Shown here: positions 13,401-64,000 of the stretch, piece after piece
Numbering within the stretch: position 1 is the first letter of the stretch
How the letters are laid out: every line of letters begins with the position of its first letter
DNA from: Cafeteria roenbergensis
Taxonomy: Eukaryota; Sar; Bigyra; Bicosoecida; Cafeteriaceae
Assembly: GCA_008330645.1 (NCBI GenBank)
Contig: VLTN01000083.1
Location: forward strand, 62,001-126,000
DNA: 64,000 nucleotides
Reading direction: 5' to 3'
The notes under the pieces: model-generated
Database searches by the model: none
What the model saw: the letters and a program-made list of their open reading frames with translations, nothing else
Told to the model about the DNA's origin: nothing
Position numbers and translations under genes: made by a program

Positions 13401-14905
13401 CCTTCCAGCCTCCCGTGGCTGTCGAACACGCCGAGACGACCGGAGGCCACGGCCGACGTCATCGCAGCCGAGGCGTCCACACAGGCCGCACGCAGCCTGG
13501 CCGACGCGCGCGGGCCGGTCCAGGCCGTCATCCAGTGGCGCACCGCCAGCCGCCCCGGCCCCCCGGCAAGCTCCAGCCAGGGGACCATGCCCCCGCGGTG
13601 GTCGCCGCGCTCGTCGGCGCACTCTGGCGTGCAAACGGGGTATCCGGAGAGGAATGAGGCGAGCTGCGTTGGGCTGCAACGGTACCACTGGAAGGCGCCG
13701 CCGTCCGCGCGCCGCAGGCCCGCTAGGAGGGCGGGGGAGGGCACGGCCCCGCCCGACACGGCCCGGCTCTGGATCACCCGGGTGATGTTCGCGAGGCACG
13801 ACTGCAGGTCGCAAGCTGGCAGCGGCGCCGACGGGTCGCCGCCCGAGCGGATCGCGGCGGCAGGGCCGCACGCCTGGCAAGGCTTGAACCAAACGTTGAA
13901 TGACGCGTAGCCGGTCTGCCAGGACGCCAGCGCCGGCGGAAGGGGCTGCAGCGGGGCCAGGGAGCCGAGGATCGCGTCGCTGAGGCACTCTCTTTGCCTG
14001 GGACTGGACCAGTTTAAGGGCACCACCTCCCCCACAGACCCGCACATGAGACCCATGACGTCGCACGTGGTGTTGTGGCCCCCGAAGCACTGCATGGACG
14101 TTGGGGGCGAGAACGCCTCCGGGTTGCGCTCCGTCCACTTGGGCCGGACGGAGAACCCCGAGGCGTCGTGAGAGTACTGGCAGCCAGCGCCCTCAGTCGC
14201 GCCATCCACCCAGGTGCCGCCGTGGGAGTACAACGGCAAGATGGGCGCGAGCTGCGAGGCGTTCCACGCCGCGCCTTGCGGGAAGAGCAGCTTGCTCTGT
14301 CCGGGGCTCGTCAGTTCGCTCCCGGGCGCCACCAGCCCGAGCCGCGACACGTTCACAACGTAGAGCGTCAGGATCTGGTGCGGTCTGTCGATGAAGTACC
14401 TCCAGCCGCGCTCGCCCGGCAGCGTCGGTCCGAATGTTGCGGCCGAATCTGGCTGCCCAGGCTTGGAGTCCGGATCCAGCGTGCTGATGGTCGGCAGCAC
14501 CTCCTTGACAAACGGCTGGAAGCCTGACTCGGCAGTTTTGAAAGTGGCAGTCAAGATGCTCCCAAAGCCGGCCTGCGACACGTCCGACTCGCGAAGCATC
14601 GAGTTTTGGATCAGCGGACCGGGGTTTTGCAGCGAGTCCTGGCCGGGACAGTGCGGCCGGTATGCGAAATCGAGCGCCGAGGTGGTTGCCCACCAGCCGA
14701 CGACGTTGGTGCAGCACGGAGGCGGATAGGCAGACGGAGTGAACCAGGACTCGACGACGATGGCCACCTCCCCGTCGAGCAGTGTGGAGGCAGTGCGAGA
14801 CGCGTTGTGGGCGTGCGACCTGCACGCCGGGGCGCTTGCGTTAAACGGCAAGGGCTCATCCGATGCCTGCAGGCTGGCGACGGGCCTTGCCTGCACGAAC
14901 GTCTC
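10454..14905 (-). CDS. Cys-rich, multi-pass membrane protein of unknown family (first exon not found)
   Basis: A frame of about 1,480 residues runs from about 14905 down to a TAG at 10454-10456. It has no ATG near its upstream end, and the sequence GCCGCAG/GAGACG at about 14905 looks like a 3' splice site, so at least one upstream exon, presumably with the start and signal peptide, is missing from my model. The first 600 residues form a Cys-rich ectodomain with many Asn-X-Ser/Thr sites (NAS, NVS, NTT, NWS, NIT, NRT). Hydrophobic segments follow: one near 12590-12520, a long one near 12350-12210, and two near the C terminus (about 10720-10670 and 10540-10480). Between them lies a Ser/Gly-rich disordered region of about 450 residues (12150-10850). 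The layout is that of a plasma-membrane receptor-like or channel-like protein, but I recognise no domain. Confidence 0.6.
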   Translation of the reverse strand, partial: ETFVQARPVASLQASDEPLPFNASAPACRSHAHNASRTASTLLDGEVAIVVESWFTPSAYPPPCCTNVVGWWATTSALDFAYRPHCPGQDSLQNPGPLIQNSMLRESDVSQAGFGSILTATFKTAESGFQPFVKEVLPTISTLDPDSKPGQPDSAATFGPTLPGERGWRYFIDRPHQILTLYVVNVSRLGLVAPGSELTSPGQSKLLFPQGAAWNASQLAPILPLYSHGGTWVDGATEGAGCQYSHDASGFSVRPKWTERNPEAFSPPTSMQCFGGHNTTCDVMGLMCGSVGEVVPLNWSSPRQRECLSDAILGSLAPLQPLPPALASWQTGYASFNVWFKPCQACGPAAAIRSGGDPSAPLPACDLQSCLANITRVIQSRAVSGGAVPSPALLAGLRRADGGAFQWYRCSPTQLASFLSGYPVCTPECADERGDHRGGMVPWLELAGGPGRLAVRHWMTAWTGPRASARLRAACVDASAAMTSAVASGRLGVFDSHGRLEGSGRTANRTVRALLSPLLSSAWLEVTLEVPAGELLRTTQAALLLGVASEAGAVTATAPGCLVATCVSCPAAADSRVWANASVNPATGQPRPPARPTPLVPLTIRLTWLPLGVAMCVAPMPADDREWLIDARTAEAAAARAARADPAGSDPVAFTGVSSNASWAAARPAAAAVASGALSRRLTGPAAAPALAAVSLAAALSDQNSHAVTGRWLVWADASTWQGDAAPAQATAAAPRCLREAATRSVAAAAAASNPSNQAVARAWAVGRRCQPLIGSGLAALGGMACALVVLAAASMALAPPAGWRSSSGGMTGPLWRCRARADAPKLAELRRDAVAARAVACRRVLPGLGRILSMTGWGLATAALATASLLGGVVAAGATVAHVLAAVASAVAACRAIAARRSLEAAAAAAAATGRTSVPGSAAAASAISTALPSSTGVARSSLPAGSRVGVSSVSETLFFTDSDTGSGGEVRSAGPAPAPGRHVSSGAGGPATALRVFGRGGRSAQPPAVGRMQGGGSGGSGGSNSGSGGDRGARWGIAPVPSTAPSPVGGVDSALEGRRAWAGVTASDKLVLAFAAVGDARSSMRAVEPLFLARRRADRHATLAAVPRLASMASLTGGERADDQPEPQTTWRVWVGMPEPAGLVIRGAGNAPAAAPVAAWELPSHDDPAERGAFHASRVEPDDELGAAISSSRLSSSTGRFAGLPSSGLDRTQLRAVVRVEMADTGADWRGGAESSGQRSEREPAGGSGGHARPTASDSDDAQSEQGSSSREDEAATGRGSPAGETGSRGGRGSTGAGRAADPPGGRTDGFEGPAEFGGFGHPGTEAWARIRQAQVPVVRMSQARPQPGGWRDVSPRGAQLAPSLSRPSHRTASDAPPRCSCRCLAPLRALPAELVSAGCLVWILLCLLAPEGQPDSVTAEIGHRLAALANLPPDGVEAVTVDVGAWARGPLLAELVPPLCMVVLGALLNATRALPTRSVS

Positions 14906-16602
14906 CTGCGGCGCTTGCCGGTCATAGTGGTGGGCAGTTGCGGACGAAAGTCAAGGGAAGGGTTGAGCGACAAAATCGGCGAGCAGAGAAAGCTTGCGTG
15001 CGCGCGGGCGGGCCACCGGCCAGCCGCCGGTTGCGGGAAGCAGGGCGGCCACGCGGCGCGCTGGCGGACCTCCGCATGTCTCACCGCGCTGGGGAGGCCA
15101 GGGAGGCCGCGGAAGCCGCCCGCGTGGGTGGAACCGGCGTGTCGAGTCGGCTCGCTTCCCGGTCGAGTCAGCACTGGCCAGTCTTCTGCCGCGCCGGCGA
15201 TGACGTTTCTCGTGAAATTGGACACCATTTGGAAGTCGCCTGGGCAGACGGTTGCGAGAGCCTCCGCGGAGGCTCCGCACACGCGCCCCAGGTCAGCTGC
15301 GGCGCGCGCGGAGGAGGAGGCGGACGAGGGAATGAGCGGCGCCGGCGGTTTTCGCGGCAATGACTCGCAAGCTGGCCGGCTCGAGCTGCCAGGGTCGCCT
15401 CGGGCGCGGATGTGGGCGGGGCAGCAGCCCCTCGGCCATCAGCGCACGGGGGGCAAATGCTGGCGCATCATTGCGCGACGAGAGGCGCGGCGCAGCCAGC
15501 GCCCACGCTGTGTTGCTGGCCAGGGTCTGGGAGCTTTGCGTTGCTCCCCATCAAACAGCAAGCTTGGCCGGACTCACGCAGCAGCGCCGGGTGCGCCCCT
15601 GGCAAAACCCCTGCGACGGCACCCGCAGCTATGTGCCCCAGATCGCACAGGTCGTCCAGAACGGGGTGATGCGGGCGAGAAGCCACCGCCACGACGAGAA
15701 GAAGCGCGCACACCGCGTGCGCAAGCGCGCGTCCTGGACCGCATGCGAGCGAGCCAGGGACGTGCGAGCGCGGCCAGTCGCCACGTGCCGCTACAAGGGA
15801 CGTGCGGGCGGCGGGCGCGCCCTCGGGTCGGCGAGTCTCTTTGCCAGCTGCAGGCGCTGCGAGTCTGACTTTCGCGCGCAGTCTTCCCGGCCAAATGCCG
15901 TCGCGCCGGCCGGCTCCGCTCGCCTGCAGGTCTGCGTCGCAGCGCAAGGCCCTTGGCATCCGGCCGCGCCAGCAGCGAGGGCACGTTTCCTGGGGCGGCC
16001 ACTAGGAAGGCGACTCGTGTTTCGGATGAGTGCGTCAGCGCAGCCGCGGCAATCTCGGGTTGGCGAGCGAGCGAGTCCCCGACAGCCTCGCTCTGCCGCG
16101 CTGCATCCGCGGAGCATCGACTGGCCGATGGCGAGAACGACGCCCGTGGTGCCCGCACACCGCAGCAGCCCGCCCGCGCCGTCTGCTTGCCACCCCTCGC
16201 ATACGTTGAGCGCCCGCAGCACCGGAATGCTCAAGCTCGCGCGCCAGTGCATTGGCAAAACCAAGCGGCCTGGCACGAGATGGACGCCATTCACGCACTT
16301 GGCCGTCCACTGCGCACCGGTACGATACACCAGGCGAGTCTGCGCCGAAGGCTTCGGCAGTGCTGACCGTGGCAGCAGCCTGGCCTCGCCAACGCCATCG
16401 GAGTGACGCGCTGGCGTGCGGGCTCCCGGCAGAGCCGAAGCAAAGGGGAGTCCGGAACCTCGCCCACCGCGGCAACGCACGCCGTTGTTGGGCCGCCCCT
16501 GCCACCCAGGCCGCGTGGTCTGGAGGGGAGGGTCCCTGCCGGCTCGTCGCGGGGGTGCGCGCTGCGCCATTGCCTTGTGCCAAGGGCCAGCTCTGCCCCT
16601 CC
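14906..16602. other. Intergenic region between divergent genes
   Basis: About 1.7 kb lies between the - strand Cys-rich gene and the + strand Ala-rich gene, so both promoters and any 5' exons should be here. Frames in this interval are Arg/Ala/Pro-rich on both strands, as expected of GC-rich non-coding DNA. The frame of the downstream gene is open from about 16252. I could not identify the missing first exon of the - strand gene, nor any RNA gene. Confidence 0.4.
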
Positions 16603-48030: not shown

Positions 48031-49652
48031 TTACGACGCAGGTGAAACCCGAAGCCGGGATGTGGGGCCTCGCGTGTCGCCGCCGCGCCGTGGCGAACAT
48101 GTCCGGGACAGGAAGCAACCTGCGAAGGCAATGCTGGCAATTCCCAGTGCAGACCCCACAACGATGTAGACGATCGTCGCTGCCTCCAAGCCAGCAGGAG
48201 ATGGACTGGCAGTCGGCGATGGGGAGGATGATGCAAGGACCGTGGTAGAGGCATCGACAACGGCATCCCCAGATTGCGACAGAACGGCAAACACCGGCTC
48301 TCCTTGGAGCTGCACGCCGGCGCTCGCTGCCGCAGGGGCGACGCTCGCGAGACCGAGGGCAATTGCCGTTCCCACAGTCCCAGATGCCAGGATCAAGTCG
48401 TCGGTCAGTCGGCGAGCCAGAGTTGACGACTCCGACACCAGGGCCGAGGCAGGATTGGAAACATTGCGCAGATCGACGCCAACCACGGCTGTCACTGCAG
48501 TGGAACCACTCTCCAGTCTCCGGAGGTCGGCTCGTGCCCGAAGCAGCAGCCTCGCTGCCCCCTCGCTTGAAACGCGAAAGTCCACGTCGATGCTCACACC
48601 CTGGGGCATTGCAAAGCCACCAAAGAGTTGCAAAAGCGTGTCCCGCACAGAATCCAGCGCGCCAGGCACAGACAGCACGGCTGAAGACCCGAAGGACAGG
48701 GGGAGTTGCACCACAATGCCACCAGCAAGCTCGCCTTCACGAGGTTGACGGACAGGCAGCGCGCCCTGTCCTGATGCTGCAGCCGACGTGAGGTCTGGGA
48801 GCAGCTCTTCGAAGACGGGTGGTGCCGCTGACGGGATTGGCCTCAGGCAGAACAATCGCGTTGCCGTCTCTCGCTTCCGCGTGCGACACGCCAGACCTGA
48901 TGCGCAGTCGGCTGTTGCACTGCAATGCCTCCCACGCTGGCAAAAGCCACATGAGGCAGGGGACGAGCCGCATAGAGGCAAGGGCACGTCGCATTGGTCG
49001 TCGCTCGGGCATGCAGGTAGTGCATCGGCCTGAGCCCTGGGACATGGCGATGATGTGAGAAGCGAGGAGGCTGCAGGGCACGCAGCACCGCCATGCTGCG
49101 GCAGGCGCAAGATCCTCCGGTACGAGAGCTGCACTCCACCGTCGCCACAGATCATGCTGCAGTTGGACGTCCCCCAGCTTGAGAGCAAGCAGTCCACAGG
49201 GAGCGAAGAAGGCGAAGGTGACGGAGCCGGCAGGCTAGAGCCAGATGGAGCTGCTGTCAGAGACGCGCTCGGAGCAATAGCGGAAGCGCTGGGGGAGACG
49301 GGCAACGAAGGCGAAAGCGCACTGGGCAGCGCGGAAGGGCTCGCCAACGACGACGCGCTCGCTGCCGCAGACGGGCTCGCCGACAACGAGGACGCGCTCG
49401 CAGCCGCAGATGGGCTCGCCGACGACGACCCGCTCACTGCCGCCGAGGGGCTCGCCGACAACGAGGACGCGCTCACTGCCGCAGACGGGCTCGCCGACGA
49501 CGACGACCCGCTCGCTGCCGCCGACGGGCTCGCCGACGACGACGCGCTCGCTGCCGCAGACGGGCTCGCCGACGACGACCCGCTCACTGCCACCGACGGG
49601 CTCGCCGACGACGACGCGCTCGGTGCCGCAGATGGGCTCGCCGACGACGACG
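48031..49652 (-). pseudogene. Thrombospondin type-1 single-pass membrane protein, 5' part cut off by the LINE array
   Basis: About 540 residues of host protein remain, read from about 49652 down to the stop at 48031. In order they are a long Ser/Ala/Pro stalk of SASPSAA units (to about 49200), a thrombospondin type-1 repeat with the typical CxxSxW, CSxxCGxG and GGxxCP spacing (about 49195-49010), a second Cys-rich module (about 48995-48845), a folded domain without a family assignment, a transmembrane helix AATIVYIVVGSALGIASIAF (about 48180-48110) and a short basic tail. There is no signal peptide or native start: upstream sequence is replaced at 49653 by the LINE 3' end. That tail happens to supply an in-frame ATG (MAWLREFSTPPNDVH joined to the stalk, 558 residues in all), but the product would lack a signal peptide. 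The gene is therefore probably broken unless its first exons lie beyond the array and splice across it. Confidence 0.65.
49345..49652 (-). repeat. Minisatellite encoding the Ser/Ala/Pro stalk
   Basis: Imperfect tandem units of about 36-48 bases (core GACGGGCTCGCCGACGACGA on the + strand) encode SASPSAAxS repeats on the - strand. The opposite strand is also open (ADGLADDD-type acidic repeats), but the Cys-rich and membrane domains in frame on the - strand show which strand is coding. The LINE array begins exactly at the edge of this repeat. Confidence 0.75.
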
Positions 49653-49661
49653 GATGAACAT

Positions 49662-52600
49662 GATGAACATCGTTGGGGGGGGTCGAAAACTCGCGTAACC
49701 ATGCCACACACTCGATTCACAGACTCACCAATCACCAATCCAGCAACTCCATCACCGATGAGTCACAAACCGCGCCAAACCCACAATCCCAAGTCTCAAG
49801 TCCCAGATCACTCCCATCACACTGCCACGAGTCACCAATCAGCCGCCCCTGCTCACCGCATACGCTCCACCTGCTGTCGCAGGTACTGCGTCTGCCCGAT
49901 CAGCTGGGTCGCCAGTCCCTTGGCGATGACCTCGTTCAGCCTCGACAGCCAGCGAAAGGCCCAGCGCGCACGCTCCCTCGGCCGGTCACCAAAGGCCGTG
50001 TCCGCCACCTTCTTGAGGAAGGCGAAGGCCGCCGGTCCCATGCGTCCCGTGGTCGTGATGACGAAGGGCACAATGGAGCTCATGTTGTCCTTTGTAGCTG
50101 AGCTCTTCTTGTACTCCCTCATCTTGTCATTCTCACGGCGCTCGAGAAAGGCGTCCATGTTCTGCAGGCCCTGCGTCACGTAGGACTTGCTTACCGCCGA
50201 GGTGATCTGCACGTCGACGAGACAGGTGGTCTCGAAGTCGACGTGCACCCGCAGGTCCGGTCGCTTGCGCGCGGCCTCGCTGGACCCCGGCTGGGACCCG
50301 AAGCGCGTCTGCCCGTCCTGCCAGCTGGAAGGCTCCACCACCGACTGCAGCCCCGCCGAGCGCACCGCCGCGTGCAGGACGTCGCGGACGTCGTTGTGCG
50401 CCCGGATGGTGGAGCCCTTGCCGCAGCGGCAGCGTGCCAGGTGATGTGCCACGCCCGAGACCCCGCCGATGTGGACGGTGCCTCTCGCGGTGGTGTCCCG
50501 CTGCACGCACGCGCAGTTGATCGACACGCCGTCTGGCACCACGTGGTCGGCCTCGGAGGCTCCGATGCGGTAGCGTTCCACCACCGCGAACTCCTCGTCT
50601 GTGAGCCCGCGGGGGCCCCATCATCGTGTTGCGGAGCCAGTAGTGCGTTCCCGGCACGCACGCCTCTCGGAACGCGACCAGGTCGCTCATGACACGCAGC
50701 ATGGCCGGGTCGTCAATGTTGGCGACACGCTTCTCCGGCGTGCCCTTTGCCAGCGCCTCGGCCCTGCAGCGTGCTGTGCAGGCCCTGCGCGCCTTGGCCA
50801 GACGGCGCAGGAAGACACACTCGTGCTTGATGCGCAGCATGTCGTCGTGATGCAGCACCATCTTGCGCTGCCAGGGCGCCTCGGTCTGCTCGTTCGCCCG
50901 CGCCATCACCCCGTCGCCGTACAGGCACTTGCGGAGCTTGGCCTTCAGGTCATCCGACAGCACGCCCAAGGTGTCGGGCAAGAAGCCCTCGAACCCTGTC
51001 GCTGCGGCCAGGCAGCGGGCTCCCTTGCAGGCCCTGATGAACTCCTCCACCAGGTTTGCCGCTGCCTCCATGTCATCCGACGACTCGTCGTCAGATCTGA
51101 GCTCCATCATCGCCTCCAGCGCCAGCTCCTCGATCTCGGCGCGCAGCTCTTCCAGGCCCTCGACAGCCCCCGCGATGTCCGACCTCCACACGTGCGCCAG
51201 CTGGTAGCGCTTCTTCACCCTGGCGGCATGAAGGTCGGCCTCCTTGCCCACGACGCAGTCCTTGTCCGGCCTGAAGTACCGTGCCTCGGTGCAGGCGTCC
51301 TTGTACTCCTTGCTGTCCCGCTCGTAGTCCCGGTAGGCTCCCTTGGCGACCTCCTCGCATCGCAGCAGGATGTCGCCCACCTCCTTGGTCGCATCGCTGC
51401 GGTCTGAGCGCTTCAGCGAGCTCCTCACGAGTTTCTTGAGCGAGATGCCCTTCCAGTTGGGGTCGTTGCCGTCCGCATCCGCGTCGGGTCCGTCCCTGGC
51501 CAACCCGATCGCCGGCGTTCGCCTGACCGAGTAGACCTGTGCCGCATCCGCTCTCGGCTGTGCGGCATCAGATGTCTCTTGGCCGGTTGGAGCGCCAGCC
51601 GCACTAGCTGCCGCTGCGCCGCCGCCGCTCGTCGTCATCTCGGTCGCCGCTCCCGCCGCGCTGGCGGCAGCCGCACCTCCACCGCCCGTCTGGCCTCCGC
51701 TTGTCGGTGTTGGCTGATGCTCCGGTTCAGCCGCTCCCCCCGTACCGCTGACGAGCCAGCCGTCCAGCGTACCTGCAAGCTGCTGCCCGTGCGCCGGCCC
51801 CTCCTCGCAGTCCTCCTTGGACTCGCTCTCTCCGACCGCCGGGTGGTCCACCCACGGCGTGCCGCCCGCTGCAGCAGCCGCCGCACCTGACTCATCCTCC
51901 GCTTCCGCCTCGTCGGCGTTGGCTGGTCCCGCTCCGGCACCACTCCCCGACGCCGCTTCGCCTCCGCCTCCACCAGTGTCGGCCCCGTCGAGGGCCTCCT
52001 CCGGCGGTGGTGCCATCTCGAACCGCCCTTTCCGCATGTCCCGAACGGCCTCGATGAAGCCCGCTGTCGCCTCGAAGCGGAACTGCGCCACGCCAGGCAG
52101 GCCCATGCCACCGGCTTTGCAGCCCTTGCTCAGCATCTTCGCCAGCCTCATCTGAGCGTAGCCTCCCTTCTTCAAGGCCGGGTTGGACGCTGCCGATGCG
52201 AGCCGAGTCACACCGTCGGCTTCCCGGCCCAGGAGCGCCCACCACGCCTCCCGCCTTGCGTGCTCGTCCGGCAGCCCCCGAACAAGCGCCTCGATGGCCT
52301 TGGACATGACCTCACGGAAGCCGTCCTCGGTCACCGTGCACATCTCGTCCGAGAGCGCGTGGCCGATCGCATCCAGCTCCGTCTTGTGCGCTACTGCCGA
52401 CAGGTTGGCCAGCAGCGCCGCATGGAACACCGCCAGCTCCTGGCCCGCCGCCGCACCCGCTGCTCTGTGCAGGTAGCTGAACTTCTGGCCCACCACCGAC
52501 AGCAGCAGGTGGTGCGCCCGCTTGAGCCCGCAGACCTCGATGCCCGCGAGCAGGCGCTCCGCAGCCGGCCCAAACTCCTTCTCCAGTCGCTTCATCGAGT

Positions 52601-52888
52601 GCTCAAGTGCCACCTCCGGCGGGAGTTCCTCCCCTACAGGACACTGCAGCACCGCCACGCTCCGTTCGGTGAGGTGGCACCCCTCCAGCACCGAGGGTGG
52701 GGACCCTGGATCGTCCCTACTCCGCTTCATCTCCCGCCGAATTCTGGCTTTGGTTCTCTCGAGCTGTCCTCGCTTGCACAGCACCTGGGTCTTGCTGGTG
52801 TTCATCCGCAGCCCCACCGTGCTGAGCCGCTCGGCCAGCATCTGGGCTGCCTTGAAGGCGCTCCTCCTCGGGCCCACCAGCGTCGTGT
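49662..52888 (-). mobile_element. LINE copy C1 (3.2 kb, subfamily A)
   Basis: The copy adjoins the host gene. It begins, in sense, just after the reverse transcriptase ADD motif (TTLVGPRRSAF), so the catalytic palm is missing; the thumb, middle region and endonuclease region remain. An extra G in a G-run near 50611 shifts the frame, splitting the reading into a part ending at 50133 and a part ending at 49853. The first part is in frame with the tail of C2, which provides an ATG (935-residue reading). The C terminus reads VERMR (subfamily A). Confidence 0.85.
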
Positions 52889-52894
52889 AGGGTC

Positions 52895-55800
52895 GATGAA
52901 CATCGTTGGGGGGGGTCGAAAACTCGCGTAACCATGCCACACACTCGATTCACAGACTCACCAATCACCAATCCAGCAACTCCATCACCGATGAGTCACA
53001 AACCGCGCCAAACCCACAATCCCAAGTCTCAAGTCCCAGATCACTCCCATCACACTGCCACGAGTCGCCAATCAGCCGCCCCTGCTCACCGCATACGCTC
53101 CACCTGCTGTCGCAGGTACTGCGTCTGCCCGATCAGCTGGGTCGCCAGTCCCTTGGCGATGACCTCGTTCAGCCTCGACAGCCAGCGAAAGGCCCAGCGC
53201 GCACGCTCCCTCGGCCGGTCACCGAAGGCCGTGTCCGCCACCTTCTTGAGGAAGGCGAAGGCCGCCGGTCCCATGCGTCCCGTGGTCGTGATGACGAAGG
53301 GCACAATGGAGCTCAAGTTGTCCTTTGTAGCTGAGCTCTTCTTGTACTCCCTCATCTTGTCATTCTCACGGCGCTCGAGAAAGGCGTCCATGTTCTGCAG
53401 GCCCTGCGTCACGTAGGACTTGCTTACCGCCGAGGTGATCTGCACGTCGACGAGACAGGTGGTCTCGAAGTCGACGTGCACCCGCAGGTCCGGTCGCTTG
53501 CGCGCGGCCTCGCTGGACCCCGGCTGGGACCCGAAGCGCGTCTGCCCGTCCTGCCAGCTGGAAGGCTCCACCACCGACTGTAGTCCCGCCGAGCGCACCG
53601 CCGCGTGCAGGACGTCGCGGACGTCGTTGTGCGCCCGGATGGTGGAGCCCTTGCCGCAGCGGCAGCGTGCCAGGTGATGTGCCACGCCCGAGACCCCGCC
53701 GATGTGGACGGTGCCTCTCGCGGTGGTGTCCCGCTGCACGCACGCGCAGTTGATCGACACGCCGTCTGGCACCACGTGGTCGGCCTCGGAGGCTCCGATG
53801 CGGTAGCGTTCCACCACCGCGAACTCCTCGTCTGTGAGCCCGCGGGGCCCCATCATCGTGTTGCGGAGCCAGTAGTGCGTTCCCGGCACGCACGCCTCTC
53901 GGAACGCGACCAGGTCGCTCATGACACGCAGCATGGCCGGGTCGTCGATGTTGGCGACACGCTTCTCCGGCGTGCCCTTTGCCAGCGCCTCGGCCCTGCA
54001 GCGTGCTGTGCAGGCCCTGCGCGCCTTGGCCAGACGGCGCAGGAAGACACACTCGTGCTTGATGCGCAGCATGTCGTCGTGATGCAGCACCATCTTGCGC
54101 TGCCAGGGCGCCTCGGTCTGCTCGTTCGCCCGCGCCGTCACCCCGTCGCCGTACAGGCACTTGCGGAGCTTGGCCTTCAGGTCATCCGACAGCACGCCCA
54201 AGGTGTCGGGCAAGAAGCCCTCGAACCCTGTCGCTGCGGCCAGGCAGCGGGCTCCCTTGCAGGCCCTGATGAACTCCTCCACCAGGTTTGCCGCTGCCTC
54301 CATGTCATCCGACGACTCGTCGTCAGATCTGAGCTCCATCATCGCCTCCAGCGCCAGCTCCTCGATCTCGGCGCGCAGCTCTTCCAGGCCCTCGACAGCC
54401 CCCGCGATGTCCGACCTCCACACGTGCGCCAGCTGGTAGCGCTTCTTCACCCTGGCGGCATGAAGGTCGGCCTCCTTGCCCACGACGCAGTCCTTGTCCG
54501 GCCTGAAGTACCGTGCCTCGGTGCAGGCGTCCTTGTACTCCTTGCTGTCCCGCTCGTAGTCCCGGTAGGCTCCCTTGGCGACCTCCTCGCATCGCAGCAG
54601 GATGTCGCCCACCTCCTTGGTCGCATCGCTGCGGTCTGAGCGCCTCAGCGCCCGCATCACGAGTTTCTTGAGCGAGATGCCCTTCCAGTTGGGGTCGTTG
54701 CCGTCCGCGTCCGCGTCGGGTCCGTCCCTGGCCAACCCGATCGCCGGCGTTCGCCTGACCGAGTAGACCTGTGCCGCATCCGCTCTCGGCTGTGCGGCAT
54801 CAGATGTCTCTTGGCCGGTTGGAGCGCCAGCCGCACTAGCTGCCGCTGCGCCGCCGCCGCTCGTCGTCATCTCGGTCGCCGCTCCCGCCGCGCTGGCGGC
54901 AGCCGCACCTCCACCGCCCGTCTGGCCTCCGCTTGTCGGTGTTGGCTGATGCTCCGGTTCAGCCGCTCCCCCCGTACCGCTGACGAGCCAGCCGTCCAGC
55001 GTACCTGCAAGCTGCTGCCCGTGCGCCGGCCCCTCCTCGCAGTCCTCCTTGGACTCGCTCTCTCCGACCGCCGGGTGGTCCACCCACGGCGTGCCGCCCG
55101 CTGCAGCAGCCGCCGCACCTGACTCATCCTCCGCTTCCGCCTCGCCGGCGTTGGCTGGTCCCGCTCCGGCACCACTCCCCGACGCCGCTTCGCCTCCGCC
55201 TCCACCAGTGTCGGCCCCGTCGAGGGCCTCCTCCGGCGGTGGTGCCATCTCGAACCGCCCTTTCCGCATGTCCCGAACGGCCTCGATGAAGCCCGCTGTC
55301 GCCTCGAAGCGGAACTGCGCCACGCCAGGCAGGCCCATGCCACCGGCTTTGCAGCCCTTGCTCAGCATCTTCGCCAGCCTCATCTGAGCGTAGCCTCCCT
55401 TCTTCAAGGCCGGGTTGGACGCTGCCGATGCTAGCCGAGTCACACCGTCGGCTTCCCGGCCCAGGAGCGCCCACCACGCCTCCCGCCTTGCGTGCTCGTC
55501 CGGCAGCCCCCGAACAAGCGCCTCGATGGCCTTGGACATGGCCTCACGGAAGCCGTCCTCGGTCACCGTGCACATCTCGTCCGAGAGCGCGTGGCCGATC
55601 GCATCCAGCTCCGTCTTGTGCGCCACCGCCGACAGGTTGGCCAGCAGCGCCGCGTGGAACACCGCCAGCTCCTGGCCCGCCGCCGCACCCGCTGCTCTGT
55701 GCAGGTAGCTGAACTTCTGGCCCACCACCGACAGCAGCAGGTGGTGCGCCCGCTTGAGCCCGCAGACCTCGATGCCCGCGAGCAGGCGCTCCGCAGCCGG

Positions 55801-57095
55801 CCCAAACTCCTTCTCCAGTCGCTTCATCGAGTGCTCAAGTGCCACCTCCGGCGGGAGTTCCTCCCCCACAGGACACTGCAGCACCGCCACGCTCCGTTCG
55901 GTGAGGTGGCACCCCTCCAGCACCGAGGGTGGGGACCCTGGATCGTCCCTACTCCGCTTCATCTCCCGCTGAATTCTGGCTTTGGTTCTCTCGAGCTGTC
56001 CTCGCTTGCACAGCACCTGGGTCTTGCTGGTGTTCATCCGCAGCCCCACCGTGCTGAGCCGCTCAGCCAGCATCTGGGCTGCCCTGAAGGCGCTCTTCCT
56101 CGGGCCCACCAGCGTCGTGTCGTCGGCCATCTGCAAGATGAGCACATCTGGGAAGGCGCGCCTCACCTCGTCCACCAGGGGGTGCACTGCGATCGCAAAC
56201 AGTGCGCCCGCTGCCGGGTCGCCTTGACGCACGCCTCTGTTGGACTCCAGCTCAAAGACCTCGCCCTCGTCCGTGGCAAAGAGGAGCGGGCTGGACGAGC
56301 CGTACAGCGCCAACACCGCCGGCACGAGCTTCTCGTCCAGCCGCCGCACCTCCTCGATCATCGCGCGCCTGGAGACGGAGTTGTAGGCGTTGGCCATATC
56401 CAGCGCCACCACCACCGTTCTGATCTCTCCCTCCTCGAACGCGGTGCGGACAGCATGGACCAGCCTGCACGACCCGTCTCGGCAGCCCAGGAACTGGAAG
56501 CGCAGCTGGTCCAGCAATCCGTGCTTCCCCAGGATGGTGTTCACCACCTTGCCCACCAGCTTGCCCAGGCCCGAGACCATGGCCACCGGCCTGATCTTGC
56601 CGTTGCCCTTGGGGATCGCCATCAGGGTTGACGACCCTAGGACCCTGCGCTCCTCGGCAGAGAGGTCGTTCCTCAACGCCCTTCGGACAAATGACACGAG
56701 CGCCTCCAGGTCCTTCTCGGCGATGTTCTCCAGCTGCTTTGCCACCATGCCGTCCGGGCCCACGGCCTTCTTGTGTGGCATCGACTGGATCGCCGCCGAC
56801 ACCATTTCCCGGAGCTCGGAGTCGGTGAGGTCCGGCGCTTCTCCCTCCACTGTGCCGTCGACCACCTCCTCCTCGCTCGGGTGCAGGTCCACCAACGCTT
56901 CCAGCGTCTCCCTGTCCTGCGCGACGGTGCCCGCCGATGCCATGCTCTTCGCCAGGTCCTTGGCGGAAGTGCCGTTTTGACGCCGCAGATACGCCTTCAG
57001 GGCCGCTACCGTGGTGAGCTGCACCCTTATTCCCGCCGCTTGCTCGACGGTCGGGTGGCCCTCCGCGTTGCCTCTGCGCCCAGCACCCGCCATTG
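52895..57095 (-). mobile_element. LINE copy C2 (4.2 kb, longest, coding frame intact, subfamily A)
   Basis: This copy spans the complete known coding frame (53086-57093) and the 3' untranslated region with terminal tail. Its 5' end lies two bases before the ATG, so there is no 5' untranslated region. Either it is truncated there by chance, or the methionine is internal to a longer frame whose start is not present in any copy here. Confidence 0.85.
53086..57093 (-). CDS. R2-like LINE protein: reverse transcriptase plus restriction-enzyme-like endonuclease
   Basis: The frame of 1,335 residues is uninterrupted. The reverse transcriptase occupies about residues 85-365: KKAVGPDG, the IPKGNGKIRPV motif, palm motif A with Asp232 (LDMANAYNSV), motif B GVRQGDP (287-293) and motif C MADD (322-325). 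After the thumb comes a Gly/Ala/Ser-rich disordered stretch (about 640-790) and a charged helical region. A Cys/His cluster follows (Cys1116, Cys1118, His1139, His1140, Cys1144, Cys1146), then RAHNDV, then the endonuclease core RPDLRV (1200) ... LVDVQIT (1215-1221), which matches the PD...DVQ core of R2-type endonucleases. Such proteins nick the target and prime reverse transcription from it. The N-terminal zinc-finger/Myb DNA-binding part usual in R2 is absent, perhaps through truncation. The length between reverse transcriptase and endonuclease, over 700 residues, is unusually large. Confidence 0.85.
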   Translation of the reverse strand: MAGAGRRGNAEGHPTVEQAAGIRVQLTTVAALKAYLRRQNGTSAKDLAKSMASAGTVAQDRETLEALVDLHPSEEEVVDGTVEGEAPDLTDSELREMVSAAIQSMPHKKAVGPDGMVAKQLENIAEKDLEALVSFVRRALRNDLSAEERRVLGSSTLMAIPKGNGKIRPVAMVSGLGKLVGKVVNTILGKHGLLDQLRFQFLGCRDGSCRLVHAVRTAFEEGEIRTVVVALDMANAYNSVSRRAMIEEVRRLDEKLVPAVLALYGSSSPLLFATDEGEVFELESNRGVRQGDPAAGALFAIAVHPLVDEVRRAFPDVLILQMADDTTLVGPRKSAFRAAQMLAERLSTVGLRMNTSKTQVLCKRGQLERTKARIQREMKRSRDDPGSPPSVLEGCHLTERSVAVLQCPVGEELPPEVALEHSMKRLEKEFGPAAERLLAGIEVCGLKRAHHLLLSVVGQKFSYLHRAAGAAAGQELAVFHAALLANLSAVAHKTELDAIGHALSDEMCTVTEDGFREAMSKAIEALVRGLPDEHARREAWWALLGREADGVTRLASAASNPALKKGGYAQMRLAKMLSKGCKAGGMGLPGVAQFRFEATAGFIEAVRDMRKGRFEMAPPPEEALDGADTGGGGGEAASGSGAGAGPANAGEAEAEDESGAAAAAAGGTPWVDHPAVGESESKEDCEEGPAHGQQLAGTLDGWLVSGTGGAAEPEHQPTPTSGGQTGGGGAAAASAAGAATEMTTSGGGAAAASAAGAPTGQETSDAAQPRADAAQVYSVRRTPAIGLARDGPDADADGNDPNWKGISLKKLVMRALRRSDRSDATKEVGDILLRCEEVAKGAYRDYERDSKEYKDACTEARYFRPDKDCVVGKEADLHAARVKKRYQLAHVWRSDIAGAVEGLEELRAEIEELALEAMMELRSDDESSDDMEAAANLVEEFIRACKGARCLAAATGFEGFLPDTLGVLSDDLKAKLRKCLYGDGVTARANEQTEAPWQRKMVLHHDDMLRIKHECVFLRRLAKARRACTARCRAEALAKGTPEKRVANIDDPAMLRVMSDLVAFREACVPGTHYWLRNTMMGPRGLTDEEFAVVERYRIGASEADHVVPDGVSINCACVQRDTTARGTVHIGGVSGVAHHLARCRCGKGSTIRAHNDVRDVLHAAVRSAGLQSVVEPSSWQDGQTRFGSQPGSSEAARKRPDLRVHVDFETTCLVDVQITSAVSKSYVTQGLQNMDAFLERRENDKMREYKKSSATKDNLSSIVPFVITTTGRMGPAAFAFLKKVADTAFGDRPRERARWAFRWLSRLNEVIAKGLATQLIGQTQYLRQQVERMR

Positions 57096-57659
57096 GATGA
57101 ACATCGTTGGGGGGGGTCGAAAACTCGCGTCACCATACCACACACTCGAGTCACAGACTCATCAATCACCAATCCAGCAACTCCATCACCGATGAATCAC
57201 AAACCGCGCCAAACCCGCAATCCCAAGTCTCAAGTCCCAGATCACTCCCATCACACTGCCTCGAGTCGTCACTCAGCCGCCCCTGCTCACCGCAAACGCT
57301 CCACCTGCTGTCGCAGGTACTGCGTCTGCCCGATCAGCTGGGTCGCCAGTCCCTTGGCGATGACCTCGTTCAGCCTCGACAGCCAGCGAAAGGCCCAGCG
57401 CGCACGCTCCCTCGGCCGGTCACCAAAGGCCGTGTCCGCCACCTTCTTGAGGAAGGCGAAGGCCGCCGGTCCCATGCGTCCCGTGGTCGTGATGACGAAG
57501 GGCACAATGGAGCTCAAGTTGTCCTTTGTAGCTGAGCTCTTCTTGTACTCCCTCATCTTGTCATTCTCACGGCGCTCGAGAAAGGCGTCCATGCTCTGCA
57601 GGCCCTGCGTCACGTAGGACTTGCTCACCGCCGAGGTGATCTGCACGTCGACGAGACAG
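57096..57659 (-). mobile_element. LINE copy C3 (0.56 kb, subfamily B)
   Basis: The copy holds the tail, 3' untranslated region and the last 120 or so codons of the endonuclease part, starting in sense within LVDVQITS. The C terminus reads VERLR (subfamily B), and the untranslated region has the B-type CTCGAGTC and GATGAATCAC variants. The reading is in frame with an ATG in the tail of C4. Confidence 0.85.
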
Positions 57660-57919
57660 GATGAACATCGTTGGGGGGGGTCGAAAACTCGCGTAACCAT
57701 ACCACACACTCGATTCACAGACTCATCAATCACCAATCCAGCAACTCCATCACCGATGAATCACAAACCGCGCCAAACCCGCAATCCCAAGTCTCAAGTC
57801 CCAGATCACTGAGGCCAAACCCGTTAAGTCCCAGATCACTCCCATCACACTGCCACGAGTCACCAATCAGCCGCCCCTGCTCACCGCATACGCTCCACCT
57901 GCTGTCGCAGGTACTGCGT
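57660..57919 (-). mobile_element. LINE copy C4 (0.26 kb, subfamily A) with 30-base insertion
   Basis: The copy holds only the tail, 3' untranslated region and about ten codons. It carries a unique 30-base insertion at 57811-57840: 15 novel bases (GAGGCCAAACCCGTT) plus a 15-base copy of the adjoining AAGTCCCAGATCACT. This looks like polymerase slippage or a template switch. Confidence 0.8.
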
Positions 57920-57920
57920 T

Positions 57921-60077
57921 GATGAACATCGTTGGGGGGGGTCGAAAACTCGCGTCACCATACCACACACTCGAGTCACAGACTCATCAAAAACCAATCC
58001 AGCAACTCCATCACCGATGAATCACAAACCGCGCCAAACCCGCAATCCCAAGTCTCAAGTCCCAGATCACTCCCATCACACTGCCTCGAGTCGTCACTCA
58101 GCCGCCCCTGCTCACCGCAAACGCTCCACCTGCTGTCGCAGGTACTGCGTCTGCCCGATCAGCTGGGTCGCCAGTCCCTTGGCGATGACCTCGTTCAGCC
58201 TCGACAGCCAGCGAAAGGCCCAGCGCGCACGCTCCCTCGGCCGGTCACCGAAGGCCGTGTCCGCCACCTTCTTGAGGAAGGCGAAGGCCGCCGGTCCCAT
58301 GCGTCCCGTGGTCGTGATGACGAAGGGCACAATGGAGCTCAAGTTGTCCTTTGTAGCTGAGCTCTTCTTGTACTCCCTCATCTTGTCATTCTCACGGCGC
58401 TCGAGAAAGGCGTCCATGCTCTGCAGGCCCTGCGTCACGTAGGACTTGCTCACCGCCGAGGTGATCTGCACGTCGACAAGACAGGTGGTCTCGAAGTCGA
58501 CGTGCACCCGCAGGTCCGGTCGCTTGCGCGCGGCCTCGCTGGACCCCGGCTGGGACCCGAAGCGCGTCTGCCCGTCCTGCCAGCTGGAGGGCTCCACCAC
58601 CGACTGCAGTCCCGCCGAGCGCACCGCCGCGTGCAGGACGTCGCGGACGTCGTTGTGCGCCCGGATGGTGGAGCCCTTGCCGCAGCGGCAGCGCGCCAGG
58701 TGATGTGCCACGCCCGAGACCCCGCCGATGTGGACGGTGCCTCTCGCGGTGGTGTCCCGCTGCACGCACGCGCAGTTGATCGGCACGCCGTCCGGCACCA
58801 CGTGGTCGGCCTCGGAGGCTCCGATGCGGTAGCGGGTGACCACCGCGAACTCCTCGTCTGTGAGCCCGCGGGGCCCCATCATCGTGTTGCGGAGCCAGTA
58901 GTGCGTTCCCGGCACGCACGCCTCTCGGAACGCGACCAGGTCGCTCATGACGCGCAGCATGGCCGGGTCGTCGATGTTGGCGACACGCTTCTCCGGCGTG
59001 CCCTTGGCCAGCGCCTCGGCCCTGCAGCGTGCTGTGCAGGCCCTGCGCGCCTTGGCCAGCCGGCGCAGGAAGACACACTCGTGCTTGATGCGCAGCATGT
59101 CGTCGTGATGCAGCACCATCTTGCGCTGCCAGGGCGCCTCGGTCTGCTCGTTCGCCCGCGCTGTCACCCCGTCGCCGTACAGGCACTTGCGGAGCTTGGC
59201 CTTCAGCTCGCCCGGCAGCTTACCCAGGGTGTCGGGCAAGAAGCCCTCGAACCCTGTCGCTGCGGCCAGGCAGCGGGCTCCCTTGCAGGCCCTGATGAAC
59301 TCCTCCACCAGGTTTGCCGCTGCCTCCATGTCATCCGACGACTCGTCGTCAGATCTGAGCTCCATCATCGCCTCCAGCGCCAGCTCCTCGATCTCGGCGC
59401 GCAGCTCTTCCAGGCCCTCGACAGCCCCCGCGATGTCCGACCTCCACACATGCGCCAGCTGGTAGCGCTTCGTCACCCTGGCGGCATGAAGGTCGGCCTC
59501 CTTGCCCACGACGCAGTCCTTGTCCGGCCTGAAGTACCGTGCCTCGGTGCAGGCGTCCTTGTACTCCTTGCTGTCCCGCTCGTAGTCCCGGTAAGCTCCC
59601 TTGGCGACCTCCTCGCATCGCAGCAGGATGTCGCCCACCTCCTTGGTCGCATCGCTGCGGTCTGAGCGCCTCAGCGCCCGCATCACGAGTTTCTTGAGCG
59701 AGATGCCCTTCCAGTTGGGGTCGTTGCCGTCCGCGTCCGCGTCAGGTCCGTCCCTGGCCAACCCGATCGCCGGCGTTCGCCTGACCGAGTAGACCTGTGC
59801 CGCATCCGCTCTCGGTTGTGCGGCATCAGATGTCTCTTGGCCGGTTGGAGCGCCAGCCGCACTAGCTGCCGCTGCGCCGCCCCCGCCCGTCGTCATCTCG
59901 GTCGCCGCTCCCGCCGCGCTGGCGGCAGCCGCACCTCCACCGCCCGTCTGGCCTCCGCTTGTCGGTGTTGGCTGATGCTCCGGTTCAGCCGCTCCCCCCG
60001 TACCGCTGACGAGCCAGCCGTCCAGCGTACCTGCAAGCTGCTGCCCGTGCGCCGGCCCCTCCTCGCAGTCCTCCTTG
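57921..60077 (-). mobile_element. LINE copy C5 (2.2 kb, subfamily B)
   Basis: In sense the copy starts at KEDCEEGPAHGQ in the disordered middle region and is open to the stop at 58112. It is in frame with an ATG in the tail of C6 (MVIGESVNRVCGMVTRVFDP...), giving a 680-residue reading with the whole endonuclease part but no reverse transcriptase. The C terminus reads VERLR. A private difference is KLPGELKA in place of VLSDDLKA. Confidence 0.85.
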
Positions 60078-60322
60078 GATGAACATCGTTGGGGGGGGTC
60101 GAAAACTCGCGTCACCATGCCACACACTCGATTCACAGACTCACCAATCACCAATCCAGCAACTCCATCACCGATGAGTCACAAACCGCGCCAAACCCAC
60201 AATCCCAAGTCTCAAGTCCCAGATCACTCCCATCACACTGCCACGAGTCACCAATCAGCCGCCCCTGCTCACCGCATACGCTCCACCTGCTGTCGCAGGT
60301 ACTGCGTCTGCCCGATCAGCTG
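60078..60322 (-). mobile_element. LINE copy C6 (0.25 kb, subfamily A)
   Basis: The copy holds the tail, 3' untranslated region and about 16 codons (ending VERMR). It joins C7 with a single filler base at 60323. Confidence 0.8.
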
Positions 60323-60323
60323 C

Positions 60324-60385
60324 ATGAACATCGTTGGGGGGGGTCGAAAACTCGCGTCACCATGCCACACACTCGAGTCACAGAC
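60324..60385 (-). mobile_element. LINE copy C7 (62 bp, tail only)
   Basis: Only the last 62 bases of the element are present: the terminal sequence with the C8 run and the adjoining CACACACTCGAGTCACAGAC. It is an extreme 5' truncation. The CTCGAGTC variant places it with subfamily B. Confidence 0.8.
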
Positions 60386-62241
60386 GATGAACATCGTTGG
60401 GGGGGGTCGAAAACTCGCGTCACCATGCCACACACTCGAGTCACAGACTCACCAATCACTAATCCAGCAACTCCATCACCGATGAATCACAAACCGCGCC
60501 AAACCCGCAATCCCAAGTCTCAAGCCCAGATCACTCTCATCACACTGCCTCGAGTCGCCAATCAGCCGCCCCTGCTCACCGCAAACGCTCCACCTGCTGC
60601 CGCAGGTACTGCGTCTGCCCGATCAGCTGGGTCGCCAGTCCCTTGGCGATGACCTCGTTCAGCCTCGACAGCCAGCGGAAGGCCCAGCGCGCACGCTCCC
60701 TCGGCCGGTCGCCGAAGGCCGTGTCCGCCACCTTCTTGAGGAAGGCGAAGGCCGCCGGTCCCATGCGTCCCGTGGTCGTGATGACGAAGGGCACAATGGA
60801 GCTCATGTTGTCCTTTGTAGCTGAGCTCTTCTTGTACTCCCTCATCTTGTCATTCTCACGGCGCTCGAGAAAGGCGTCCATGTTCTGCAGGCCCTGCGTC
60901 ACGTAGGACTTGCTCACCGCCGAGGTGATCTGCACGTCGACGAGACAGGTGGTCTCGAAGTCGACGTGCACCCGCAGGTCCGGTCGCTTGCGCGCGGCCT
61001 CGCTGGACCCCGGCTGGGACCCGAAGCGCGTCTGCCCGTCCTGCCAGCTGGAGGGCTCCACCACCGACTGTAGTCCCGCCGAGCGCACCGCCGCGTGCAG
61101 GACGTCGCGGACGTCGTTGTGCGCCCGGATGGTGGAGCCCTTGCCGCAGCGGCAGCGTGCCAGGTGATGTGCCACGCCGGAGACCCCGCCGATGTGGACG
61201 GTGCCTCTCGCGGTGGTGTCCCGCTGCACGCACGCGCAGTTGATCGACACGCCGTCTGGCACCACGTGATCGGCCTCGGAGGCTCCGATGCGGTAGCGTT
61301 CCACCACCGCGAACTCCTCGTCTGTGAGCCCGCGGGGCCCCATCATCGTGTTGCGGAGCCAGTAGTGCGTTCCCGGCACGCACGCCTCTCGGAACGCGAC
61401 CAGGTCGCTCATGACGCGCAGCATGGCCGGGTCGTCGATGTTGGCGACACGCTTCTCCGGCGTGCCCTTGGCCAGCGCCTCGGCCCTGCAGCGTGCTGTG
61501 CAGGCCCTGCGCGCCTTGGCCAGACGGCGCAGGAAGACACACTCGTGCTTGATGCGCAGCATGTCGTCGTGATGCAGCACCATCTTGCGCTGCCAGGGCG
61601 CCTCGGTCTGCTCGTTCGCCCGCGCCGTCACCCCGTCGCCGTACAGGCACTTGCGGAGCTTGGCCTTCAGGTCATCCGACAGCACGCCCAAGGTGTCGGG
61701 CAAGAAGCCCTCGAACCCTGTCGCTGCGGCCAGGCAGCGGGCTCCCTTGCAGGCCCTGATGAACTCCTCCACCAGGTTTGCCGCTGCCTCCGTGTCATCC
61801 GACGACTCGTCGTCAGATCTGAGCTCCATCATCGCCTCCAGCGCCAGCTCCTCGATCTCGGCGCGCAGCTCTTCCAGGCCCTCGACAGCCCCCGCGATGT
61901 CCGACCTCCACACGTGCGCCAGCTGGTAGCGCTTCTTCACCCTGGCGGCATGAAGGTCGGCCTCCTTGCCCACGACGCAGTCCTTGTCCGGCCTGAAGTA
62001 CCGTGCCTCGGTGCAGGCGTCCTTGTACTCCTTGCTGTCCCGCTCGTAGTCCCGGTAGGCTCCCTTGGCGACCTCCTCGCATCGCAGCAGGATGTCGCCC
62101 ACCTCCTTGGTCGCATCGCTGCGGTCTGAGCGCTTCAGCGCCCGCATCACGAGTTTCTTGAGCGAGATGCCCTTCCAGTTGGGGTCGTTGCCGTCCGCGT
62201 CCGCGTCAGGTCCGTCCCTGGCCAACCCGATCGCCGGCGTT
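60386..62241 (-). mobile_element. LINE copy C8 (1.9 kb, subfamily B)
   Basis: In sense the copy starts at TPAIGLARDGPD and is open to the stop at 60576. It is in frame with an ATG in the tail of C9, giving a 582-residue reading that contains the Cys/His cluster and endonuclease core. The C terminus reads VERLR. Six filler bases (AGGATT, 62242-62247) separate it from C9. Confidence 0.85.
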
Positions 62242-62247
62242 AGGATT

Positions 62248-63388
62248 GATGAACATCGTTGGGGGGGGTCGAAAACTCGCGTAACCATGCCACACACTCG
62301 GTTCACAGACTCACCAATCACCAATCCAGCAACTCCATCACCGATGAGTCACAAACCGCGCCAAACCCACAATCCCAAGTCTCAAGTCCCAGATCACTCC
62401 CATCACACTGCCACGAGTCGCCAATCAGCCGCCCCTGCTCACCGCATACGCTCCACCTGCTGTCGCAGGTACTGCGTCTGCCCGATCAGCTGGGTCGCCA
62501 GTCCCTTGGCGATGACCTCGTTCAGCCTCGACAGCCAGCGAAAGGCCCAGCGCGCACGCTCCCTCGGCCGGTCACCAAAGGCCGTGTCCGCCACCTTCTT
62601 GAGGAAGGCGAAGGCCGCCGGTCCCATGCGTCCCGTGGTCGTGATGACGAAGGGCACAATGGAGCTCATGTTGTCCTTTGTAGCTGAGCTCTTCTTGTAC
62701 TCCCTCATCTTGTCATTCTCACGGCGCTCGAGAAAGGCGTCCATGTTCTGCAGGCCCTGCGTCACGTAGGACTTGCTCACCGCCGAGGTGATCTGCACGT
62801 CGACGAGACAGGTGGTCTCGAAGTCGACGTGCACCCGCAGGTCCGGTCGCTTGCGCGCGGCCTCGCTGGACCCCGGCTGGGACCCGAAGCACGTCTGCCC
62901 GTCCTGCCAGCTGGAGGGGCTCCACCACCGACTGTAGTCCCGCCGAGCGCACCGCCGCGTGCAGGACGTCGCGGACGTCGTTGTGCGCCCGGATGGTGGA
63001 GCCCTTGCCGCAGCGGCAGCGTGCCAGGTGGTGTGCCACGCCCGAGACCCCGCCGATGTGGACGGTGCCTCTCGCGGTGGTGTCCCGCTGCACGCACGCG
63101 CAGTTGATCGACACGCCGTCTGGCACCACGTGGTCGGCCTCGGAGGCTCCGATGCGGTAGCGTTCCACCACCGCGAACTCCTCGTCTGTGAGCCCGCGGG
63201 GCCCCATCATCGTGTTGCGGAGCCAGTAGTGCGTTCCCGGCACGCACGCCTCTCGGAACGCGACCAGGTCGCTCATGACGCGCAGCATGGCCGGGTCGTC
63301 GATGTTGGCGACACGCTTCTCCGGCGTGCCCTTGGCCAGCGCCTCGGCCCTGCAGCGTGCTGTGCAGGCCCTGCGCGCCTTGGCCAGA
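62248..63388 (-). mobile_element. LINE copy C9 (1.1 kb, subfamily A), frameshifted
   Basis: In sense the copy starts at AKARRACTARC. One extra G near 62916 breaks the frame just before the endonuclease core; the last 131 codons are then read separately to the stop at 62439. The C terminus reads VERMR. Six filler bases (AATGAA, 63389-63394) separate it from C10. Confidence 0.85.
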
Positions 63389-63394
63389 AATGAA

Positions 63395-64000
63395 ATGAAC
63401 ATCGTTGGGGGGGGTCGAAAACTCGCGTAACCATACCACACACTCGATTCACAGACTCACCAATCACCAATCCAGCAACTCCATCACCGATGAGTCACAA
63501 ACCGCGCGAAGCCCACAATCCCAAGTCTCAAATCCCAGCTCCCTCCCATCACACTGCCTCGAGTCGCCACTCAGCCGTCCCTGCTCACCGCAAACGCTCC
63601 ACCTGCTGTCGCAGGTACTGCGTCTGTCCGATCAGCTGGGTCGCCAGTCCCTTGGCGATGACCTCGTTCAGCCTCGACAGCCAGCGGAAGGCCCAGCGCG
63701 CACGCTCCCTCGGCCGATCACCGAAGGCCGTGTCCGCCACCTTCTTGAGGAAGGCGAAGGCCGCCGGTCCCATGCGTCCCGTGGTCGTGATGACGAAGGG
63801 CACAATGGAGCTCAAGTTGTCCTTTGTAGCTGAGCTCTTCTTTGTACTCCCTCATCTTGTCATTCTCACGGCGCTCGAGAAAGGCGTCCATGCTCTGCAG
63901 GCCCTGCGTCACGTAGGACTTGCTTACCGCCGAGGTGATCTGCACGTCGACGAGACAGGTGGTCTCGAAGTCGACGTGCACCCGCAGGTCCGGTCGCTTG
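63395..64000 (-). mobile_element. LINE copy C10 (continues beyond window, subfamily B)
   Basis: The tail, 3' untranslated region and C-terminal coding part are present, with the 5' part outside the window. One extra T near 63841 shifts the frame. Several private substitutions in the untranslated region (for example GAAGCCCAC where other copies have CAAACCCAC) make it look somewhat older or from a different source than its neighbours. The C terminus reads VERLR. Confidence 0.8.

Follow-up and report, generated by a model that had tools for sequence, protein, structure and literature searches.

The right-hand 14.3 kb of a 64,000-nucleotide stretch of the Cafeteria roenbergensis genome (contig VLTN01000083.1, positions 62,001 to 126,000; the whole stretch is called the window below and is numbered from its first base) are filled by ten copies of one long interspersed nuclear element (LINE), all on the minus strand and stacked head to tail from 49653 to 64000. 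The feature itself is confirmed: an earlier sequence-only reading had described ten 5'-truncated copies with a common strand and 3' end, and both a 19-base 3'-end pattern and blastn recover all ten. The element is probably a LINE of the restriction-like endonuclease (RLE) type, and we give about an even chance to the stack having been built by successive end-primed addition, perhaps at a chromosome end.

The shared 3' end defines the array. The 19-base pattern of the element 3' end has ten exact plus-strand matches (49663, 52896, 57097, 57661, 57922, 60079, 60324, 60387, 62249 and 63395), and allowing up to three mismatches adds no other site in the window and none in 100 shuffles. When the whole window is compared with the longest copy by blastn (E up to 1e-3), the matches span 49663-64000 and leave uncovered 15 nt of copy 4 (57811-57825) and, at six of the junctions, 1-7 bases; element position 1 is the start of each copy in 10 of 10 cases, and this search finds no match outside the array and, as the first reading had held, no 5' fragment standing alone. 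From head to head, copies 1 to 10 span 3233, 4201, 564, 261, 2157, 245, 63, 1862, 1146 and at least 606 bp, the window edge at 64000 falling within copy 10. The 5' truncation points are all different, and at each of the nine internal junctions a truncated 5' end is followed by the shared 3' end with no host DNA between, an earlier claim that is refined by the zero to six extra bases at the readable junctions described below. The 30-mers across the copy starts are each unique in the window (10/10), which argues against a multi-copy unit amplified by crossing-over or break-induced copying; DNA-level amplification of such a unit was rejected on this ground.

The copies vary in length. Copy 1 (49662-52888) is 5'-truncated at about 3.2 kb and has one additional base in a G run. 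Copy 2 (52895-57095), the longest at 4.2 kb, carries an open frame with a reverse transcriptase and an RLE-like motif, ending at a stop codon at 53086-53088. Copy 3 (57096-57660; 564 bp) is followed by copy 4 (57661-57919), a 3'-end fragment, by copy 5 (57921-60078; 2.16 kb) and by copy 6 (60079-60322; 244 bp). Copy 7 (60324-60385) is only 62-63 bp long and has the same sequence as the start of copy 8 (60386-62241), which measures 1.86 kb and has a single-base deletion in its 3' untranslated region. Copy 9 (62248-63388; 1.14 kb) has one additional base in a G run, and copy 10 (63395-64000; at least 606 bp), inside which the window ends, has one in a T run. The homopolymer bases of copies 1, 9 and 10 and the untranslated-region deletion of copy 8 may be real or may be sequencing errors. 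Within copy 4, at 57790-57840, an internal short duplication accompanies the 15 unmatched bases, as if reverse transcriptase had slipped back on its template. At the boundary of copies 7 and 8, positions 60324-60448 form a perfect (100%) 63-bp tandem repeat, and copy 7 may have arisen not by insertion but by duplication of the start of copy 8 at the DNA level.

The junctions are clean. They were read by eye from the BLAST alignments, with one or two bases uncertain where bases are shared, and eight of the nine internal junctions can be read base by base against a longer copy; the junction of copies 2 and 3 is unreadable, there being no longer copy for comparison. The readable junctions hold zero to six extra bases and share zero to two bases with the tail. 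Six extra bases, matching neither neighbour, occur three times: AGGGTC between copies 1 and 2 (52889-52894), AGGATT between copies 8 and 9 (62242-62247) and AATGAA between copies 9 and 10 (63389-63394), the last resembling a partial repeat of the 3' tail. One such extra base follows each of copies 4 and 6, while copies 3, 5 and 7 are followed by none and share one, two and zero bases with the tail, respectively. Partial 3'-tail repeats thus occur at two of the ten copy starts, those of copies 1 and 10. In the former case, nine bases of the tail (GATGAACAT; 49653-49661, minus strand) lie between the host and copy 1, and the same nine bases are found again at the start of copy 2.

On its left, the array abuts a host gene fragment. 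Read by eye, the last host base is 49652, so the array start at 49653 given by the sequence-only reading is exact. A minus-strand gene fragment (48034-49652) with a weak spondin-type TSP1 match is open up to the array: its frame runs for 540 codons to the array edge without a stop and matches PF19028 over residues 155-204 (E 7.7e-7; its 29.7 bits fall short of the gathering score, 41). Because its first methionine is residue 167, within the TSP1 match, a 5' part of this TSP1-type gene is missing on the left side. Where the array begins, a host coding minisatellite with a 36-bp period (49330-49652) ends.

The copies resemble one another closely and differ mainly at third codon positions. The seven longer copies are 96.5-99.3% identical in pairwise comparison, and no two of them are the same over the 564 positions that they share. 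Third codon positions account for 39 of the 64 variable coding columns (p 5.6e-6) and, once three clusters of linked changes have been set aside, for 33 of 48. Over the 21 pairs, the ratio of nonsynonymous to synonymous differences (pN/pS) lies between 0.04 and 0.33 in 16, is 0 in three, reaches 0.93 in one (copies 1 and 3, with four differences) and is undefined in one (copies 3 and 9, with no synonymous and three nonsynonymous changes); neither columns nor pairs are independent, and the p values serve as guides. Variant columns are distributed as a mosaic among the copies. Since differences favour third positions and all the longer copies differ, the copies appear to have been drawn from several live source elements, with little decay after insertion. 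Private changes, counted at positions with four or more copies aligned, number 8/1856 (copy 1), 0/1856 (copy 2), 0/564 (copy 3), 0/229 (copy 4), 23/1856 (copy 5), 0/244 (copy 6), 0/62 (copy 7), 7/1855 (copy 8), 3/1139 (copy 9) and 8/605 (copy 10). The first reading had proposed that such changes would date the copies and so separate the models, but the comparison does not decide: no gradient is visible along the stack, and most differences fall at third positions, as would be expected of variation among sources.

How could such a stack arise? The three models first proposed (serial template jumps in one integration, repeated capping of a chromosome end and insertion targeted to the element's own tail) are the right ones to weigh. 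We infer a free DNA end and successive additions. The stack would have grown rightwards, one addition after another, at a chromosome end or at a broken end within the TSP1-type gene, as suggested for Giardia GilT and GilM and known for HeT-A and TART. The exposed plus-strand 3' end, where the preceding copy was cut short on its 5' side, would prime reverse transcription, which would begin at the fixed 3' end of each new element RNA; the new copy would halt before the RNA 5' end or be eroded later. The orientation of the array is that given by a primer at a right-hand chromosome end, and we count the cutting of the host frame at the array edge in favour of end-primed addition. The extra bases of up to 6 nt and the partial tail repeats of copies 1 and 10 suggest that synthesis starts at these junctions. 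The third-position excess and the low pN/pS in 16 of 21 pairs fit recruitment from several live elements. In addition, AGGGTC and AGGATT each lie one mismatch from AGGGTT, a register of TTAGGG (P about 0.002 on uniform bases, post hoc), a comparison that assumes TTAGGG to be the host repeat; the telomere-like register of two of the three 6-nt inserts is a lead only.

Several observations weigh against addition at a chromosome end. By eye, AGGGTC is also similar to GGGTCGA, a piece of the element close within its 3' end. In the window, two TTAGGG units with up to two mismatches have no match, a weak test given 0.75 expected by chance, and six telomere units chosen from general knowledge give none either, whether as two units with up to one mismatch or as three with up to two. 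G-quadruplex motifs, which most telomeric LINEs examined are reported to carry (PMC10088271), are absent from the array on either strand, while the remainder of the window has 1 and 5. Within the array, the plus strand is rich in C (GC skew -0.12 to -0.18), whereas the bias on approaching a right-hand end is usually the reverse. What follows the array on the right lies beyond the window, the visible part ending within copy 10. Terminal addition would make this right-hand copy the youngest, and yet it has the highest rate of private changes; the missing age gradient, judged visually and without a formal test, counts on the same side. Finally, neighbouring copies are no more alike than expected by chance (permutation fraction 0.59 over the first 229 positions of nine copies, all but copy 7). 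That end-primed addition goes further, such that an RLE-type LINE acts as chromosome-end extender in a high-GC protist (68.7% GC in the window), healing broken ends and extending them with no telomere repeats between copies and partly replacing telomerase, we regard as improbable. The gene style and GC content of the window are reminiscent of Cafeteria roenbergensis/burkhardae, for which 70.1-70.5% GC is reported.

Alternatively, the element could target itself. Its endonuclease would cut the boundary of host and tail, or its own 3' tail, so that copies are added leftwards and the stack lies inside a chromosome; we hold this possible, although on the unlikely side. Self-targeting yields an identical architecture. 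The two readings part at the junctions, each of which would be the end of the left-hand copy under self-targeting and the start of synthesis of the right-hand copy under terminal addition or template jumping. GATGAACAT, present left of copy 1 and at the start of copy 2, stands where a 9-bp target duplication flanking copy 1 would put it, but it is the single such duplication seen and the remaining insertions would need none; moreover, the partial tail repeat between copies 9 and 10 is better explained by a start of synthesis there. There are precedents for this route: CNL1 is reported to favour its own copies and to show duplications of 0-13 bp where it has inserted into a reporter gene (PMC12810828), and Zepp arrays are described as forming via insertion into existing copies (PMC8226300). 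The top private-change rate of copy 10, the rightmost, leans the same way, but copies 2, 3, 4, 6 and 7 have no private changes and there is no steady leftward fall.

The stack could also result from one integration, if reverse transcriptase passed serially from a truncated RNA to the 3' end of the next RNA before second-strand synthesis. Template jumping of this kind is documented in vitro for the R2 reverse transcriptase of Bombyx mori, an enzyme that appends untemplated bases and then moves on to another template at its 3' end (PMC8857657), as the sequence-only reading had noted of R2 jumping, and the zero to six extra and zero to two shared bases of the readable junctions suit it. However, three of the eight carry 6 nt, while R2 is reported to jump best in vitro with one or two overhang bases (PMC8857657), and the seven longer copies all differ, so that a single event would need many different RNAs. 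Both points disfavour template jumping, which we consider rather unlikely.

An assembly artefact, or recombination amplifying one insertion, seems very improbable: the three copies with additional homopolymer bases, possible sequencing errors, and the perfect 63-bp duplication of copy 7 could be read this way, but ten unique copy starts, truncation points that all differ and mainly third-position differences are expected from neither. Least probable of all, to the point of being nearly negligible, is that the array forms the left-hand portion of a plain nested stack, with the complementary 5' parts placed past 64000, on the side outside the window, for every insertion would have had to land either in the innermost copy or on the right side, out of view, and in 200,000 simulated stacks of 10-30 insertions in one orientation only 17 had ten leading segments all from the 3' end, independent orientation costing about 500-fold more by arithmetic; the early judgement that plain random nesting is very unlikely is thereby borne out.

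The element itself is best known from copy 2. Its open frame has 1347 codons, the start running through the neighbouring tail, and encodes a reverse transcriptase (RVT_1, E 3.7e-20) whose xADD motif reads MADD. Seven PDB chains match this domain at E up to 0.01: three of R2, three of LINE-1 and one 'RNA-directed DNA polymerase'. R2 elements have a reverse transcriptase followed by a C-terminal RLE, and the R2 clade carries N-terminal zinc finger and Myb domains. In copy 2, which begins shortly before the reverse transcriptase, no N-terminal domain is seen, the 5' end of the element lying outside the window. Residues 1128-1232 fit a relaxed RLE pattern of our own writing (C-x1-C-x21-H-x3-C, RAHN, E, RPD, D), but the motif with its published spacing (PMC12857005) has no match in the copy 2 protein; MoTeR and FoTeR, described as having a C-terminal restriction-like endonuclease, have 6 to 8 residues between the second C and the H of the zinc motif (PMC12857005), as against 21 here. 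The RLE-like region alone gives one irrelevant PDB match (E 0.64), and Pfam finds no endonuclease in the copy 2 protein. The name 'R2-like' given by the sequence-only reading therefore applies only loosely: R2 chains are indeed the best PDB matches (3.4e-5), but LINE-1 is close behind (2.3e-4), the RLE motif appears only with relaxed spacing, and a search of the window with Rfam at gathering scores gives no match to any family, rRNA included. In contrast to R2, which inserts at its own site in 28S rDNA, there is no rDNA in the window by Rfam, and the left flank is a coding minisatellite. No poly(A) tail of the element is seen, and the RNA fold of its last 196 nt is no more stable than shuffles (z 0.10). 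Single-sequence AlphaFold models were too poor to use (mean pLDDT, the per-residue confidence score, 39.8 for the RLE region and 39.2 for the reverse transcriptase region). No relative of the element was confirmed in viral or genome contig collections (2 and 29 pattern stretches, respectively, none encoding a relative), and its 19-base 3' tail occurs in no viral contig and in two genome contigs, of a cyanobacterium and an archaeon, against about 1.9 expected by chance.

Arrays of the Giardia elements GilT, GilM and GilD and of CNL1, MoTeR, Zepp and HeT-A are on record, so the architecture is already known in kind, with a protist among the hosts, and RLE elements are known to form comparable arrays. 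The Gil elements of Giardia carry an RLE. GilT and GilM are described as lying in such arrays between subtelomere and telomere repeats (PMC5537684), while no telomere repeat is seen in our window. GilM and GilT have been assigned to the CRE clade (PMC10088271), and 'Giardia Genie (GilT)' has been placed outside the fungal CRE-type clade (PMC12857005). In Cryptococcus, CNL1 copies are reported in subtelomeric arrays, inserting into one another (PMC12810828). The early label 'unusual for a protist RLE element' thus finds no support, given the arrays described for GilT and GilM (PMC5537684) and the comparable ones of CNL1 (PMC12810828) and Zepp (PMC8226300).

MoTeR and FoTeR are, like CNL1, CRE-type elements of fungi. 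MoTeR forms tandem arrays at chromosome ends with copies separated by short telomere tracts (PMC8381367), and FoTeR is also found at chromosome ends, its own ends carrying telomere repeats and truncated copies being among its members (PMC12857005). The present array is unlike both: its copies follow one upon the other, and no readable junction has more than six extra bases. MoTeR-type joining by telomere tracts was rejected, none being found in the window. HeT-A, TART and TAHRE belong to the Jockey clade. In Drosophila they are described as stacked head to tail in one direction, the 3' ends facing the centromere, and as having poly(A) tails (PMC5537684). The element studied here differs from them in lacking a visible tail of this kind, and its chromosome-end position is putative. 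For the short copies 4, 6 and 7, an origin as 5' tags of the HeT-A type, derived from read-through transcripts, is conceivable. Among the Zepp and Zepp-like LINEs of green algae, Zepp reportedly clusters in the telomeric region of Chlorella. This L1-type element forms centromere clusters in Coccomyxa, and its tandem arrays, mostly of 3' ends, are ascribed to insertion into existing copies with frequent 5' truncation (PMC8226300). As in telomere-associated LINE arrays, the order is head to tail and one-way with 5'-truncated members; within the window, no telomere repeats lie beside or between the copies.

What is new is another instance in another genome, with clean junctions, and their precision makes the mechanism testable under either setting. 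If terminal, the array would add one more eukaryotic lineage to the few with LINE-extended chromosome ends, and would be a readable record of single addition events, with their truncation points, untemplated bases and source variants. If internal, it would be a clean case of a LINE targeting its own tail.

Elsewhere in the window, open frames at 1074-10013 (plus strand, 2979 codons) and 10457-14950 (minus strand, 1498 codons) have no Pfam match at E up to 0.01. A 66-bp tandem repeat (3.2 copies, 98% matches) lies in a long open frame at 1972-2180. A single plus-strand open frame of 7959 codons (23211-47090) appears by eye to encode a giant protein that is extracellular, contains LamG-, cadherin- and IPT-like repeats and has its C-terminus in the membrane.

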